64,000 nt of DNA from Haliotis asinina (lineage: Eukaryota > Mollusca > Gastropoda > Lepetellida > Haliotidae), in NCBI RefSeq assembly GCF_037392515.1, contig NC_090280.1, positions 28,711,118-28,775,117 of the forward strand, given 5' to 3'. Below are positions 15,976 through 62,780 of this stretch, in pieces. A program made the translations under genes and the position numbers. Position 1 is the first letter of the stretch; each line of letters begins with the position of its first letter. The notes beneath the pieces are model-generated. The model was not told the DNA's origin, did not search any database, and saw only the letters and a list, made by a program, of their open reading frames with translations.

Positions 15976-18900
15976 GTGAGTAGTTCCTATTCCCTTATCA
16001 CCTGCAGTTAAACTGATAGGAGTATGGATATGAGAACCAGATAGGCCCCAGCAGTATTTGTGTACCTTTCACTATTACATCACCTGTCACCCGTGAAGAT
16101 CCAGGTTAGGGAGGTCTGGCTCGTTGACTTGATTGACACATGTTATCTGTTCCCGCCCCAGACCATACAACCCCGTGTATGACTTGATAGACAGAGAGAG
16201 AAAGCAAGGAATTCCACATCTGTTTTGAACCTGCCAATGTTGTTGGTCAGAATTTAAAATATAAGGTTAGTTTTGTTGATGGTGACGTACTGCTGTGAGA
16301 TATAGCAAATTAGTAAACCAGGTCAAGTCATTCACCAAATGTGCTCAGAGTCGGTTATATGTGGTGGAACCGTCTGACAAATTATTACAAGGTGTGTACA
16401 TGCAATGAGTGGAACAGAATGGCAATGCAACCTACTTCTGGGTGAAGCTGACTGGTCTTAAAAGTGAAAAAAGGGGCTTTTGCTACTCAGGACCAGCCTA
16501 CTCGCAATTGCCAAAATATGATTCTCAAAGAAAATATCAATATAGAAATATCAACTTTGCAATGAAGTTGTAGAGACTCACGAACACCTCATCAGCGGAT
16601 GCCGTTTCTTAAATGCTCGCTGCTTTTACTACCGTCACAGACGAGGTCCATCTATGGTACGACCCTGACCATGTCAAGGGAGTCATGGAAAGTGATAATT
16701 TTAAACCTATTTGGAATAGACCTATATGCAGCCTAAGAAGAACAAACAACAAGCTTTAGCTTGTGATGAGCTAAATTTTACGCTATTGAATTTTCTGAAG
16801 TCTCTTTTGACTGCATTGTGACTGACAAGATTGCGGAAGTCGCCTTTTAGAAAAGTCTCGTTTGTACACTGTCGTTAGGCAGTGCAGTATTTTTTGCAAA
16901 AATATATTACATGCATGATGCACAATTTACAAATATGATCTGCACTGTGCCTCACAGTTTGAGTGTTACGAAGTAAATTGTAATATAGACTTCAATTGTA
17001 ATACTTGCAGAAAACTGTGATAACCCTTTATGTAAATTGTAATTAAAACGTAAATTAAAGCAAAAACCGATGTAACGTGTAGTATAAACGTAAATTGTAA
17101 TAAACATTGACGTAAATTGTGATAATCTAGTTGCGGTAAAATGTAATAACTATTTACGTAAATCGTAATAACATTTTATCAGTCGTAAATACGCTTGTGT
17201 GCGTTTTTCGTTGCATTGCATACATCATATACGCTTAAGCTTGTTCGAGCGATAAGTCAACAACAACAAGAACGACAACAAAAGAAATAATTGATTTTGT
17301 TCAAATTTGGTAAGAAAGTTTCGTCGCGAGATTCGGTTACACCAGTTGAGAGATTCGCCTACATCAGTTGAATGTTGTGACCTTGAAAGGTAACAGCAAA
17401 ATTCTGAGGATTTGCTAGCGTGATAAACCTAATAAAAATAACAGATTTTGATCCAATTTTACACCAAAGTGTATCGGCAGGAATTTCCCTACACAAGTCG
17501 ATTGGGGAACTTGTGCTCATTTTGAGTTGTACTGTTTGGCACGTGTTCAACTCTTTAGTGCGAGTACACAAGAAAGAATTAATATATTCTGCTTAAACGT
17601 AGCATCAAAATGTTCTGGGCGGATCGTCTCCTGCCAGTCTAATTCACTGATCTTTCGATAATTTTCAAGGTCACAGCATGTAGTCTTCCGATATCCCTCC
17701 AAACTAATGGATGGAATTTGTTTCACCGCATCCGGTGACAGTTTTCGTAACGTTTATGTAATTTGCAAGGCCACACAGAGCATTATTAAGATATTCCGAT
17801 ATTGAGTGTAATAGCTGCACACGTGTTTCTGACAAAAAAACTGTCATTAGTGATTTTCAAAATTTTCTTAGCAATTGGTTTCCATAATTCCACGTTGTGA
17901 AATTACTCGTCATACGTCTTAAACTACAAGATATTTTTTTGTGTTTGTTTTTGAAAATTAAGCTACATGAAATTGTTTTTAATTATGAAGGTATTCTCAC
18001 AGTTGAAGCAAGAGCATATTTTACGAGCAATAGCTTTCAATATTTTCATGTTATTTCTATTGCATTTTGAAGGTGTTCATGACGTATGCTTGTTTGTGAA
18101 TAGAACAGTAGGTTTATTCTTCTTCACGTTGGAAATCGTTTCGATGTTGACGCAAGGACATATCTGAAGTTAATTTGATGTTTCTATTGTGTGTGATATA
18201 TTTGGATTTATGTTTGGATACCGCTTTACCTGGTTCGCATTTTGTCTTCATCATATTACTACATATTACTAAAATTATATGAGGGGAAATTTATGTTATA
18301 TTTGCTAAAGATACAATGAATCGCTGGCGCCTGGTTATTCCAAGCCACAGTCACTCTGTCTACTTGTTTGTTGTATTTGGTTGATGCATTTTAAAATATA
18401 ATGTAGAAATGCTATTGTATTATACCAAGTTGTTTCAAGGAATCGATTATATGTGTTCGTTATCAAAGTAAAGTCAAACTGTAAGGTACTAAATGTTTGC
18501 TGACCCTTAATTGTAATGGGAATACTAAGGAAAACATAAGTCTCATAGCACAAAATTATGGAATCCGAGAAGGGACATTGTCGCGTTGTCGCCCTCTCAA
18601 AAACAAGCAAAATGAGGTGAAAATTAACCAAAGCGCGACAATGTGACAATGCGACAACGCGACATTTCGCCTATTTGTCGCATTGTCGTGATGTCGCATG
18701 TCGCGTTTCGAAAAACATTTTCTCTGTTCCTCCAAAGTGCGACACGCGACATAGCGACATTTTTCAAGGTCAAAATATGTCGCGTTGTCGCATTGTCGCC
18801 CTATCTAACATATGTAAGAATTCACTAAAACGCAACACGCGACAATGCGACAACTGTTGCGCTGTCGCGTCTCGCGCTTTATTAAAATATTGACCATAGT

Positions 18901-21900
18901 ATGCATTTAACAAATTGACTAAAACGTGACACGCGACAATGCGACAAATCATATGTCGCACTGTCGCGTTGTCGCCCTTTTCTGTTACCGGTGCGCATGT
19001 GTAGTCAATTAATCTACGCATGCGCAGCAAATATTATACTCTATTCCAGACTTCACCGGTCTTTCGTTACCTTCAATGGTTTTCAAAATGAAGTAGTGCT
19101 CGAAATGGCAATAGGCCTTCGCTTCTTGAACTTAATGCAAATCTTTCTTTGTTGCTTTATTGTTTTACGTATTGCAAATCTATTTGGCCAGTCAAGTGTG
19201 TACCAGCAACAAAACGAATTATTCATTGTAATCACAGCACACTGTGCCCCTGTCATTCAAGGCGGGGCAATTTGCTGTTCAGAGCTAGTGTCTTAATCAC
19301 TCCATATAGCTATTATCATAAATTCAAATCCCAGCAAAATACACATTAATCACTTTGGACATTTCGATGACAGGTTGTGATGACAAGTTGTGATGACAGG
19401 TTGTGAGAAACTGAAATATTGTTAAAATTCAAGCCACAGCGACAGAAACATCAGGTGATGTCCTCGAATGGATCACTATGTTCCATAATGTGGCTCTTGA
19501 CAGTTTCATGGTACAATCCTGTCCGACGCTGATGAATTTGTTCGAAATCTGCTTCTGTTCAGCCAGCAGTGGATGGATACCAAATAGAATGAATCACTGA
19601 ATCACTTAACCATCCGGCACCTCAATGACACTTTAGGTCGGCTTTGAACGTGATAATTGGAAAACGTCTTACAAATGGACTGCTAGCGGTAGGATATTAG
19701 AAACAATTACATCACTTGGTAGAGTTGCGTACACTTGCAGTGTCAGAAACCAGCTTAAACTACCTTACTCCTCTCACTCCGCGACGCTCCACTACTCTCC
19801 ACCCCACTCCGCTCCTCTCACTCTTCCGCCGCTCACTCCACTCGCCCAAGGTGTATTGGTAAATAGGAAGGTATTTCAATACAATACTGTATTGTGATGC
19901 CCGTTTTCATTTCTGTTTGAATCCTATATTATTGATCCTGCACATAGTCTGATTCACAGTATACGTAATTTTGTCATACGTATACTATATCCAGTCATAC
20001 ACATGTACTTCTATCGCTTAAAACCTACGGCTGCTATATCAGAATAATTTTCAACAAAATGGTCAGCCTGAATAGAACCATCCCGTTAAGCAACAACACT
20101 CAACCACTCTGGACTTCACGGCTATATGAACGTTCATTCATTATTGTTCTGATTTCGATCCCTGGGTGTCTGAACCCTTCAAAAATATCGAAAAATAATC
20201 ATGGTTGTGATAGTTTTACCTTCCGCCGTGACTAATAAAATTTTGATGAAATGTCGCGTTGTCGCATTGTTGCGTGTCGCATGTCGCGTGTCGCGTTTTA
20301 GTCATTAAGCTACAATACATACATTGGTCAATATTTTACCAAAGCGCGACACACGACAATGCGACAACGCGACATTTCGTCAAAATGTCGCGTTGTCGCA
20401 TTGTCCCGTGTCGCGTTTTATTAGTTACGACGGAATCTAAAAAGTGTCACAAACATGATTGTTTTTATATGTTTTTAAGAGCTGAGATACCCGTGAATGG
20501 AACTCAGAACAATGATAAATGAACGTCCATGTTGCCGTGTAGTGTGTGGGTTAAGAGTGCGTGGTTAATGGAATGGCGTGTTCAAACTGTCCATTTTGCT
20601 GAAGAATATTATGATTGAGTACGTGCATGTCTGAAACGATACAAGTATATACGTATCGCTGGATATAGTATCCATGTGAGAAAAGTATGAGATATACTGT
20701 GAATCTTCTCATGTGCAGGGTTAACCAGAGTGAGTGAGTTTGGTTTTACGCCGCTTTTAACAATATTCCAGCGATATCACGGCGGAGGACAACAGGAAAT
20801 TGGCCTCACACATTGTACCCATGTGGGGAATCGAACCCGGGTCTTCGACGTGACGAGCGAACGCTTTAACCACTAGGTTACCCCACCGCCCAAGGGTTAA
20901 TAAGACAGGATTCACCAAGAACTAAAAACAGACGTCGCAACGCATTATTGGCATGAAATACCTCGCTAATTTCCGAAGCTTCCTAAACCTTGAGAAAGCG
21001 GAGCGAAGCGGAGAGGAGACGGCTAGAGTGGAGTGGAGTAGAACGGAGCGACGGAAGGAGTGAAGGGGAAGGAGGGGAGAGGAGAGGTGTGGTGTGGTGT
21101 GGTGTGGTGTGGTGTGGTGTGGTGTGGTGTGGAGCGTCGCAGAGTAGGAGGGAGGGAGAGTTGGTGTCTGGCACTTCAAGGGTACGCAACACTACCAAGC
21201 GATTTCATCGTTTCTAATAAACCATCCCTCCAGAAGAAACGCATAGGCGATTTGTATTTTAACAACTCTAGTAATTACCTATTGTGTTCACACAATCGTC
21301 AAAATATGTAACAAAAGTGTTGAAAACATGATTTTACACAATTTACTTACTGGCAATAAAAATCCGAAATTGGCATTCGTTTTGAAGGCGTGTCAAGGTC
21401 AAATCACTCGACACGACACGGAACATCGCCATTGAGAGATGCTGGAGATTACCAATCTTCTGTTGCCAGGCGTCTATACGTTAGTCTGATCAAGATATAA
21501 TGACTTGCAGCTCGTTGCAGCCAAACAGGTATAAGAAATCACCGGCCCCGTGCAGGCAGACCTCGAGTTACCACTGCGGCTCAAGATCGGTACATAAGGT
21601 ATTACAGTTGAGTAATCGTACTCCCATGGGTGAGAGCACAACAGCCAGGGCACCTGGACTTCAGAGGATGTCAGGTCAAACTTACGGGACAGGTTGAAAG
21701 AGATTCGTTTGAGAGACAGAAAACCCGACGTCAGGGTCGTGCTACGTCGCCATCATCGTGCTCAACGTCTTCGCTATCAAGATGTATAATATTTGTTTTA
21801 TAGACATTGCCTTCCTCTAAGCTCATGCAGTCATTACTCATGTAAAATTTCATGCTCTAAAGTCTATGTATGGACGAGTTATACATGTTTGAAAATTTTC

Positions 21901-24900
21901 GCCAAATATTTCTCGTCTATGCGTTTATTTATTGGGATAGTATATCACAATGATAACAGTCCATTTATATGACGTTTTCCCATTATCACGTTCAAAGCCG
22001 ACCTAAAGTGTCTTTGAGGTGTCGGGTGGTTAAGTGATATCTCATTCTACTTGGTATCCATCCACTGCTGGCTGAACAGAGGCAGATTTCGAACAAATTC
22101 ATCAGCGTCGGATAGGACTGTCAGGAGCCTCTCTATGGAAAATAGTGATCCATTCGATGACATCACCTGATGTTTCTGTCGCTGTGGCTTGAATTTTAAC
22201 AATATTTCAGTTTCTCACAACCTGTCATCTTGATATTGGCGAAATGTCCAAAGTGATTAATGTGTATTTTGCTGGGATTCGAAGTTATGATAATAGGTAT
22301 CTGGTGTGGCTAAGAGGCTAACTCTACACAGCAAATTGCCCCGCCTTGAATGACAGGGCAACCGTGTGCCGTGATTACAATGGAAAGTTGAGCAAATAAT
22401 TGTCTTGCTGCTAAAACACACTTGATTGGTTAAATACACTCATACATAAAATAGTTTGCAAACCAACAATGAAGATTTGCATTGAGTTCAAGAAAAGCAG
22501 CCCAACTGCCATTTCGGGCACTACTTCATTTTAAAAACCATTGGAAGTGGCAAAAAGACCAGTGAAGTATGAAATAGAGTTTGACTTTTCCTGCGCATGC
22601 GTACTACAATTGACTTTCTACGCATGCGCACCGGTAATCGAAAAGGGCGACAACGCGACATTTCAATATGTCGCATTGTCGCGTGTGGCGTTTTAGTAAA
22701 TGATTAGTTTTTTCTTTACACATCTTAGATAGGGCGACAACGCGACATATTTTGACCTTGAAAAGTGTCGCTATGTCGCGTGTCGCACTTTGGAGGAACA
22801 GAGAAAATGTTATTCAAAACGCGACACGCGACACGCGACACGCGACATCACGACAATGCGAAAAATGGGCGAAATGAAACGCCCCGTGCAAACCCTCAGA
22901 TTTTTGCTGTGACCTTGCAAATTATCTCATGGTGAATCTCACCAAGACACCTTGATTCCAAAAATGTGAACACAATCCATCATTTCTTTTTCCTTTCCCG
23001 CCCTAAAACGCGTGTATGATGTACGAAATGCAGCGAAAAATGACCACTCGCGTATTTTCTAAACCTTTAAACTGTTATTACAATTACCGTAAGTAGTTAT
23101 TATATTTCATCACAAGTTAAATTATTACAATTTAAGTTTTTATTATAACTTACGTCAAGGGCTATTATGGTTTGCAGCAGGCATTACAGTTTACATTTTA
23201 GTACAAGTTACGTCGAAACAAAATATAGTCATTGTTGCAAATATAGCCATTGTTACACATGGCGGTATAGTGTTCTTTGATAATGTCGGCTGTGGACAAA
23301 GCAGTCAACACTTCTATACCTTATTGCAAGCCAGAGTTACTACATTAAATATTTCATCCAGTGGGGTTGGGCACAACCCGTGAAGATACAGGTTGGAATT
23401 GGTCTTCAGCAAACCCATACTTGTCGTATGAGGCGACACTCAGGGTTTGTGGTCAGACTGGTTGATATTCCTAACCAAATTTCAACGCATGCCAACTCAA
23501 AATAGTTCATCATGATCCCAGTCACTGGATTGTCTGATCCAAACTCGACTTTCATAGTCTTGCATTTGCTGAGCCTGCGTTTAAAACACGCAGGCAGGTA
23601 CCTAAGTGGATAGGTGCTCTCATCTCACCTTTTGCATCATAATAAGTCCATAGAAATGTTTCCTTCCTTCCTCAATGACGGAGGTACATAACGTAGATAC
23701 CCTTGGGAGGCTTGGACGTGCACTCCTTCGTCTGCGGTGAACCCAGTCTCTTTCTATCACTGAATAAATCTTAGAACTGTTATCTCGGTGGCATCAAAAG
23801 GCGTTGGCAGCAGTTTGGTATGTTGACCCAACCTGCTCCGTCTCAATTGGTCTTTTTCTTTCTCTTCAGCTTTTAATCGTACTTGTTAATCGCACTTGTT
23901 AATCGTACTTGTTAATCATACTTGTTAATCATACTAGATAATCATACTTGTTAATCGCACTTGTTAATCAGACTTGTTAATCATACTTGTTAATCATACT
24001 TGTTAATCATACTTGTTAATCATACTTGTTAATCATACTAGATAATCATACTTGTTAATCGCACTTGTTAATCATACTTGTTAATCATACTTGTTAATCA
24101 GACTTGTTAATCGTACTTGTTAATCATACTAGTTAATCATACTTGTTAATCATACTTGTTAATCATACTTGTTAATCGTACTTGTTAATCATATCAAGCA
24201 TGACAGTCTTTCTTTATACCCATATACTCATTCTACACGTGCAAATACTGCTTGAATATTGCTACATTTTTGATACTTTTGATGCGGAATGATGCTGCTG
24301 TGTGTAAACAGAGTGGAAAAATGTTACTGTGCAAGCAATTATGAATGTTAACAAAGATATACTGAAATGTTCCCGACACTACACAATATCAAAGACACGT
24401 TTTAATTGTGTTCACTAATGCAGATCAGCAGAAAATGTTTTAATAAACTGAAATCATAGAAATGATTCTTTTACAACACTACGACTGTTGTGTTCTTGTT
24501 TTAGTAGTTGAAAATGGTGATTTAAATGGCTTATCATTGTCTCAAAGCAGAAGTACATTTCAATCCTTTTTTTGACATATACTAGTTTATTTCGGCATGG
24601 TATAAAATGGGACGATTTAACTATTCTGAAAAAGATGCATTTCGCCTAAATGTGAATACATTTGAGAATTCGTTTTCGTGATTTGATTTAAGTTGCTTTG
24701 TTCAGCTCTCTTGTCAACTAATGCTTTCTAACATGTCTTTGATAGTTCAGTAATTCAAAAGGGTAGGAGGGTAACGCCTTTAGTGTGTATAGAGTCGTCA
24801 TTTTTAAGTCATGTAGACGACCAGGTGTATGCCATCAAAGAAAGGAACATTAACATCATCCCTCTCTAACCAGCAAATTTGGTAAACAATACAGTTAAGA

Positions 24901-62235: not shown

Positions 62236-62539
62236 ACTGTTTACTACAGAGACGGCCATGTGGTGGTGAAACTGTCACGGTGTTACAACGGCAAGGATGT
62301 GTGGAATCACGGCCAAAACAAGAACAGCTGGCATCGCATCACTGATCCTGCAACAAGCTATGTTAGCACTGTAGTCGGTATGGTGCCAGCGGCAGTATAC
62401 TACCTCTATACTACCTCTCGTCCCTGGGTATTGGTACCCTCCAAAAATATTGCTATTTTGCCAGGGTACTGCCATGACACATGTTCTGACCAGTATGGCC
62501 TTCTGGCAAAGTAACTTCTCTTCAGGTGAGCTCTGAGAG

Positions 62540-62780
62540 CTAAGAGTGGTGGGTTTGGTTTCATGCCGTACTCAGCAATATTCGAACTATATGGGGAAGT
62601 CTGTTAATAATCGAGTCTCGACAAGACAATCCAGTGATCAACAGCATGAGCATCGATCTGTGGAACTGGTAACCGATGACACGTGTCAAGCAAGTCAAGC
62701 CTGACCACCCGACCCAATTAGTCTTACGACAAGCATGGGTTACTGAATGCCTATATTATAACCCGAACCTTCATGGGTTT
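62540..62780 (-). mobile_element. SINE-B copy
   Basis: TTTCATGCCGTACTCAGCAA, CAAGACAATCCAGTGATCAA, CCCGAACCTTCATGGGTT head. Confidence 0.9.

Follow-up and report, generated by a model that had tools for sequence, protein, structure and literature searches.

Positions 16964 to 23220 of the window analysed here, a stretch of 64,000 nucleotides from the abalone Haliotis asinina (contig NC_090280.1, positions 28,711,118 to 28,775,117, forward strand), very probably contain two unrelated DNA-transposon families, each with inverted ends, one of which is nested in the other. This estimate applies to the explanation as a whole, i.e., to the nesting, to a non-autonomous inner foldback element, to an enzyme of the IS3EU type and to a divergence of the two arms before the inner family spread. 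In the proposed history, the inner foldback would be mobilised by a transposase whose gene lies elsewhere and which recognises the inner end of 28 bases, TATGGAATCCGAGAAGGGACATTGTCGC. Insertion would proceed by a 6-bp staggered cut, made by an enzyme which, judged by ends and target duplication, would belong to the IS3EU/GingerRoot superfamily. A 7.3-kb element would be the probable mother form, shorter forms being generated through deletion between internal arrays, and the difference between left and right arms would predate the spread of the family, both arms having aged in parallel since then. The copy in the window went into an older element, one that belongs to a different family, and would have lost its right end later.

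Nesting of two families

When each part was searched separately against the genome (1.14 Gb, with the window on its contig C1), the region split into two sets of loci. The matching loci switch at window positions 18549-18557, where the second set starts with 94-100% identity over its first 44-52 bases; the inner element begins at 18557. Six loci of the outer family (L041, L042, L045, L046, L047 and L048) align as far as window positions 18532-18556, and the inner terminus was not found in these six at up to 5 mismatches. Because they run to this point without the inner end, we conclude that the inner family was inserted into the outer element. At other loci, the inner family is bounded by ends of its own and by 6-bp target duplications, and when an inner copy (L056) was compared with an outer copy (L101), no match at E 1e-3 reached 60 bases. 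A sequence-only reading of the region had offered, as one option, that an older foldback had received a younger one, and this is what was found. A search of Rfam at gathering scores with 16500-23800 gave no match.

Both inverted pairs described in that reading exist. In the self-comparison, the outer pair (16993-17234 / 23252-23010) is 67.3% identical over 251 columns (E value 3e-24), while the inner pair is 80.6% identical over 794 columns (18914-19685 / 22701-21954) and 78.4% identical further out (18663-18880 / 22876-22642); under laxer scoring the inner value is 77.0% (18778-19697 / 22840-21942). Thus, the inner arms are closer to each other than the outer ones, as had been stated, but at 77-81% they are not far closer to identical. 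They are real, although the left start given for them, 18655, lies about 100 bases late.

The right junction of the inner element is incomplete. Its right arm ends at 22876, the partner of 18663, and both the partner of 18557-18662 (106 bases) and the right terminus are absent; by eye, the sequence of the outer right arm takes over again no more than about 12 bases beyond 22876. Since about 2.2 kb separate the equivalent of 18556 from the other terminal arm in one outer copy on C1 (L007 and L046), we infer a deletion at 22876/22877 which removed the inner right end together with some of the outer interior.

Ends and target duplications of the inner family

The 28-base inner end occurs exactly at 194 places in the genome, the window's included (103 forward, 91 reverse), and its reversed control at none. 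In different copies, this left end is preceded by copy-specific flanks. Pair counts come from the 100 places that were listed, among which there are at least 23 neighbouring inverted pairs of termini, 162 bp to 9.5 kb apart, at least seven of them at 7.3-8.0 kb. Target duplications were sampled in 23 copies, comprising the flanks of 20 listed pairs and three further copies (L049, L051 and L052). A 6-bp duplication is perfect in 17 of the 23 and matches at five of six positions in L056 and L058, and shuffled pairing of the flanks gives a mean of 0.75 perfect 6-bp matches (maximum 6 in 500). Duplications of 2-5 bp or of 7-11 bp are perfect in none. A 14.9-kb copy on C6 has CTAATG on both sides.

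The ends of the full copies L049 and L052 read TATGG..CCATA and those of L051 TACGG..CCATA; the 20 pairs were chosen by the exact 28-base end, and so carry TATGG..CCATA by choice. The main parts of L049, L051 and L052 follow the window's order. The smallest member observed, L057 (G000:C2:24924816-24924977), is a 162-bp miniature with exact 28-base ends and the perfect 6-bp duplication CTTAAC.

Superfamily of the inner element

According to PMC10045372, TA..TA ends are invariable in complete IS3EU families and the duplications are usually of 6 bp, and a fungal set is described in a section of PMC12730594 as having TAYGG..CCRTA ends, terminal repeats of more than 30 bp and 6-bp duplications. The inner element begins and ends with TA, its TATGG..CCATA fits the fungal consensus, its terminal repeats exceed 30 bp, and, among lengths from 2 to 11 bp, a duplication of 6 bp is the only one perfect in any sampled copy. 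It also has the anatomy of a foldback, in which long inverted repeats with internal subrepeats flank a variable middle. The element would therefore fit the description "IS3EU-like by ends and target", which falls short of proven membership, and the statement that no known family came to mind was too pessimistic. Unlike IS3EU/GingerRoot elements, the inner element has arms of 1-2 kb or more with heptamer arrays, a 7.3-kb form in which no gene was recognised, and no transposase that we could see. A table of PMC8268682 applies the label IS3EU-like to two satellites of another mollusc, the Pacific oyster. A literature search for IS3EU foldbacks found only a citation of the Drosophila virilis element Tetris, which does not establish that nobody has published the combination, and a search for abalone foldbacks found none.

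Several observations weigh against this account. The direct 6-bp duplication is wanting in four of the 23 copies, in addition to the two with five of six matches: L049 carries a GACTTGT repeat shifted by one or two bases, and L071, L075 and L091 match at one to three of six positions. The window copy lacks its right end, and the duplications come from other copies. A transposase was not found in the centre of the 7.3-kb copy or in the translated part of the 14.9-kb copy (all except its last 2.2 kb), and of 10 rve_3 matches viewed, out of 109 in the genome, none was IS3EU-like; by eye, nine had frames resembling the pol of long-terminal-repeat retrotransposons and one (L106) was without a frame of 200 amino acids. 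As 100 of the 194 inner-terminus places were listed, an autonomous copy could be among the remaining ones. Moreover, IS256 and MuDR together are given a range of 4-10 bp in the part of PMC10045372 concerned, so that a length of 6 bp alone does not exclude Mutator. Lastly, at the TGTTACG..CGTAACA ends of the outer family (window, L101, L102, L097/L098 and L099/L100) no target duplication was recognised by eye.

Two candidates for an autonomous partner were rejected. The six frames of the 7.3-kb centre (L056) gave no Pfam match at E 0.1. The 14.9-kb pair on C6 proved to be a copy of the foldback into which other elements are nested, including relics of a LINE-type (long interspersed element) endonuclease, reverse transcriptase and RNase H. 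In L059 and L060, which are longer copies, there are additional inserts, and these were screened for open reading frames. Weak matches of single open reading frames, all below the curated cut-offs, were discarded: Cas9_Topo (E value 0.008) in L056, and bHLH_PER (E value 0.055) and DUF2555 (E value 0.16) in the window.

Membership of some other superfamily with 6-bp duplications, with TATGG ends by coincidence, appears unlikely. The assignment is built on ends and target length, with no transposase in hand, and Dada-like elements produce 6-bp duplications. Polinton does so too, as noted in the pertinent lines of PMC10045372, and an undescribed superfamily would be a further candidate. However, the agreement of TATGG..CCATA with the fungal IS3EU ends speaks against this reading, as does the 7.3-kb centre, where Pfam shows no gene in any frame.

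We give somewhat less credence still to a Mutator (Mutator-like element, MULE) foldback, or to one of the P kind such as Galileo. Subrepeat-built long arms around a variable non-coding middle are typical of these, most foldbacks seem to be Mutator members according to the discussion of the matter in PMC4079207, and the IS256/MuDR range mentioned above embraces 6 bp. A close parallel is Tetris, for which the account in the same source gives long inverted repeats with tandem subrepeats, a variable non-coding middle, derived tandem arrays and no autonomous copy found. Nevertheless, Tetris makes duplications of 8-10 bp and is assigned to Mutator there, and Galileo of Drosophila to the P superfamily, whereas the inner element has other ends, which fit IS3EU, and 6-bp duplications, with none of the 23 copies perfect at 7-11 bp.

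Divergence of the two arms

To compare arms between copies, the arm body (18980-19690 and its partners) was aligned in 33 rows, of which four are duplicate loci, leaving 29 distinct arms, four of them from one tandem array; matches under 600 query bases were dropped. Identities refer to ungapped columns, and hence lie above those from BLAST. Both arms are available in seven inner copies, and in all seven the within-copy identity is 83.5-87.3%. Between copies, the mean is 92.5% for left against left, 92.6% for right against right and 84.0% for left against right. In the tree, each arm clusters with arms of its own side rather than with its partner in the copy; the seven right arms form one clade (support 1.000). 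The arms of L055 and L056 are 99.0% and 98.8% alike between these copies, compared with 84.9% and 84.6% within them.

Furthermore, in six of the seven copies the private branches of the two arms differ by no more than 0.005: 0.057/0.057 in the window, 0.036/0.037 in L049, 0.029/0.028 in L051, 0.026/0.031 in L052, 0.005/0.003 in L055 and 0.006/0.010 in L056. L021 is less even (0.020/0.037). Left arms were sampled more densely, which shortens their branches. At 44 diagnostic columns, defined by agreement of at least five of seven arms on each side, zero to three per arm show the state of the opposite arm. Thus, left and right arms diverged before the family spread and have aged independently since, at similar rates and with no sign of homogenisation.

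As the within-copy identity is constant and the right arms form one clade, the difference between the arms is inherited and does not serve as a clock, and conversion is not needed to account for it. The 84% identity of the window's arms therefore says nothing of its age. By private branch the window copy belongs with the older part of the sample (0.057, followed by L025 with 0.056 and L020 with 0.049), and its arms are about as alike as those of L055 and L056, where the private change is 0.3-1% as against 5.7%, the arms being about 84-85% identical in either case. Arm-to-arm identity in a foldback is thus unusable as a measure of age, and the argument from two age classes made in the sequence-only reading falls with it, since young and old copies do not differ in this respect.

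As its other option, that reading had named gene conversion or hairpin repair as what preserves the likeness of the inner arms. The corresponding rival explanation is one giant hairpin subject to conversion or to hairpin-primed repair. The window's inner arms are indeed more alike than its outer ones, and the divergence along them, for which an even course had been named as the refuting outcome, is uneven (59-96% identity in 75-base bins). This patchiness, however, is partly common to other copies (rank correlation 0.49-0.87 between the window's ten-bin profile and six others), inner and outer parts are separate families with different ends, and a single converted hairpin was rejected by the arm tree and the rarely switched diagnostic sites; we hold it to be very improbable.

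The 7.3-kb form and its derivatives

The 7.3-kb form of the nested foldback family consists of two arms of 2.1-2.5 kb with GCGACA/TGTCGC arrays around a 2.6-kb centre, the hexamer cores being concentrated in arrays at both ends and beside the centre. L055 and L056 are 7.3-kb copies in opposite orientation and are 96-98% alike in three blocks that span the whole length. Of 21 scored places matching the 2601-bp centre (the query's own included), 12 cover all or all but one base of it at 95-100%. This form is the youngest seen, and probably the mother form. Since copies 98-100% alike exist, relatives of the inner family have apparently been active recently. The genome harbours a large family with IS3EU-type ends which has apparently been active of late and which includes near-identical 7.3-kb copies.

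The window copy is without the 2.6-kb centre, which lies between arrays; for this reason a deletion between arrays may have given rise to the shorter forms, the window's of about 4.3 kb included. At C10:6091895-6097718 (L013, L014, L016 and L017) the inner arm is arranged head to tail in four near-identical units with 1709-bp spacing, and this array is, to judge from its units, derived from the transposon. We tentatively propose, as a conjecture somewhat short of even odds, an IS3EU foldback whose GCGACA heptamer arrays would be both repeated transposase-binding sites and points of recombination, so that a gene-free 7.3-kb mother would yield shorter foldbacks (down to 162 bp) and 1.7-kb head-to-tail arrays, with the arms staying distinct. 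The binding sites are putative and belong to this conjecture only.

The C10 array could suggest that a dispersed or satellite-like repeat forms the inner arms and is inverted here by chance, but six other copies have both arms inverted (L021, L049, L051, L052, L055 and L056) and paired termini with 6-bp duplications recur, which leaves this explanation with hardly any probability.

Interior of the inner element

The extent first given for the inner arms is incomplete. Inverted pairing continues to the centre, with 76% identity between 19695-19815 and 21219-21106 and 69.6% in the palindrome 19932-20724. One half alone contains a repeat (20728-20891) which, by eye, we take to be SINE-like (short interspersed element). 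It begins GTGAGTGAGTTTGGTTTTACGCCGC and has 22 further matches in the window, between 27360 and 62233. It is present at the same site in L049 and absent there from L051, L052, L055 and L056, and it marks a subfamily within the inner element.

The segment 21220-21941 was considered as a later insertion in the right arm, which was rejected because other copies have it at the corresponding position; of the 40 copies scored, many lack 21270-21448. Within the segment, 21634-21786 resembles a weak relic of the helix-turn-helix of a Tc3-type transposase (Pfam E value 0.0019, which does not reach the curated cut-off) and may be a captured Tc1-like fragment.

The outer family

The outer ends, 16964 and 23220, are set by the family terminus TGTTACGACGTAAATTGTAATA, which occurs at 53 places in the genome at up to one mismatch, the window's own counted, and at none for the control. 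By alignment, the arm match can be traced inward to about 17430 / 22884. The arms and 17438-18556 are mostly 65-84% identical to other loci, and the family is old. Since L101 (6.3 kb) and L102 (1.6 kb) carry both outer ends in inverted orientation, the outer family is also a paired-arm family, and its arms, like the inner ones, recur as pairs elsewhere, as the sequence-only reading required. Within copies, the best terminal segments by BLAST are 70-74% identical in L101 and 71% in L102; in the joint alignment, arm identity is 73.9% in the window, 56.9% in L101 and 71.5% in L102. L101 (G000:C9:15606150-15612600) lies inside a SINE-like repeat, which it interrupts; the sequence flanking it on either side is ATGG-like, with an offset of 1-3 bases. 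By eye, its frames resemble the end of a LINE reverse transcriptase.

Identity rises to 93-97% in four short matches (39-45 bases) to about 22889-22933 in the outer right arm, and three of these are on C26. From such matches, some younger sequence related to the outer right arm appears to exist. The C26 places (62479-62751, 167045-167317 and 246849-247121) are 97% identical over 39 bases and 72% beyond, and are perhaps a younger relative of the outer family.

Features of the region

Table 1. Parts of the two nested elements, in window coordinates.
Feature	Position	Strand	Remarks
Outer element, left terminal inverted repeat	16964..17437	+	starts TGTTACGAAGTAAATTGTAATA; degenerate ~22-bp subrepeats to ~17178, then more arm
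Outer element, internal part	17438..18556	+	other copies ~62-82% alike
Inner foldback element, IS3EU-like ends, no recognised gene, right end missing	18557..22876	+	
Inner element, intact left terminus	18557..18584	+	TATGGAATCCGAGAAGGGACATTGTCGC
Inner element, left array of GCGACA/TGTCGC heptamer-type repeats	18557..18980	+	22 hexamer cores in 424 bases
Inner element, left arm body	18981..19690	+	pairs with 21942-22640
Inner element, palindromic part	19691..20724	+	19695-19939 pairs with 20893-21219; 19932-20724 own inverted repeat
Heptamer array in centre of palindromic part	20240-20420		
SINE-like insertion	20728..20891	+	
Asymmetric segment of inner right half	21220..21941	+	
Inner element, right arm and heptamer array, shortened	21942..22876	-	array at 22641-22876
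Junction bases, truncated inner element / outer right arm	22877..22888	.	origin ambiguous; judged by eye
Outer element, right terminal inverted repeat	22884..23220	-	ends CGTCGAAACA at 23220

Just beyond the outer element, at 23873-24193, a tandem repeat of the 13-bp unit TTAATCATACTTG comprises 24.7 copies (90%).

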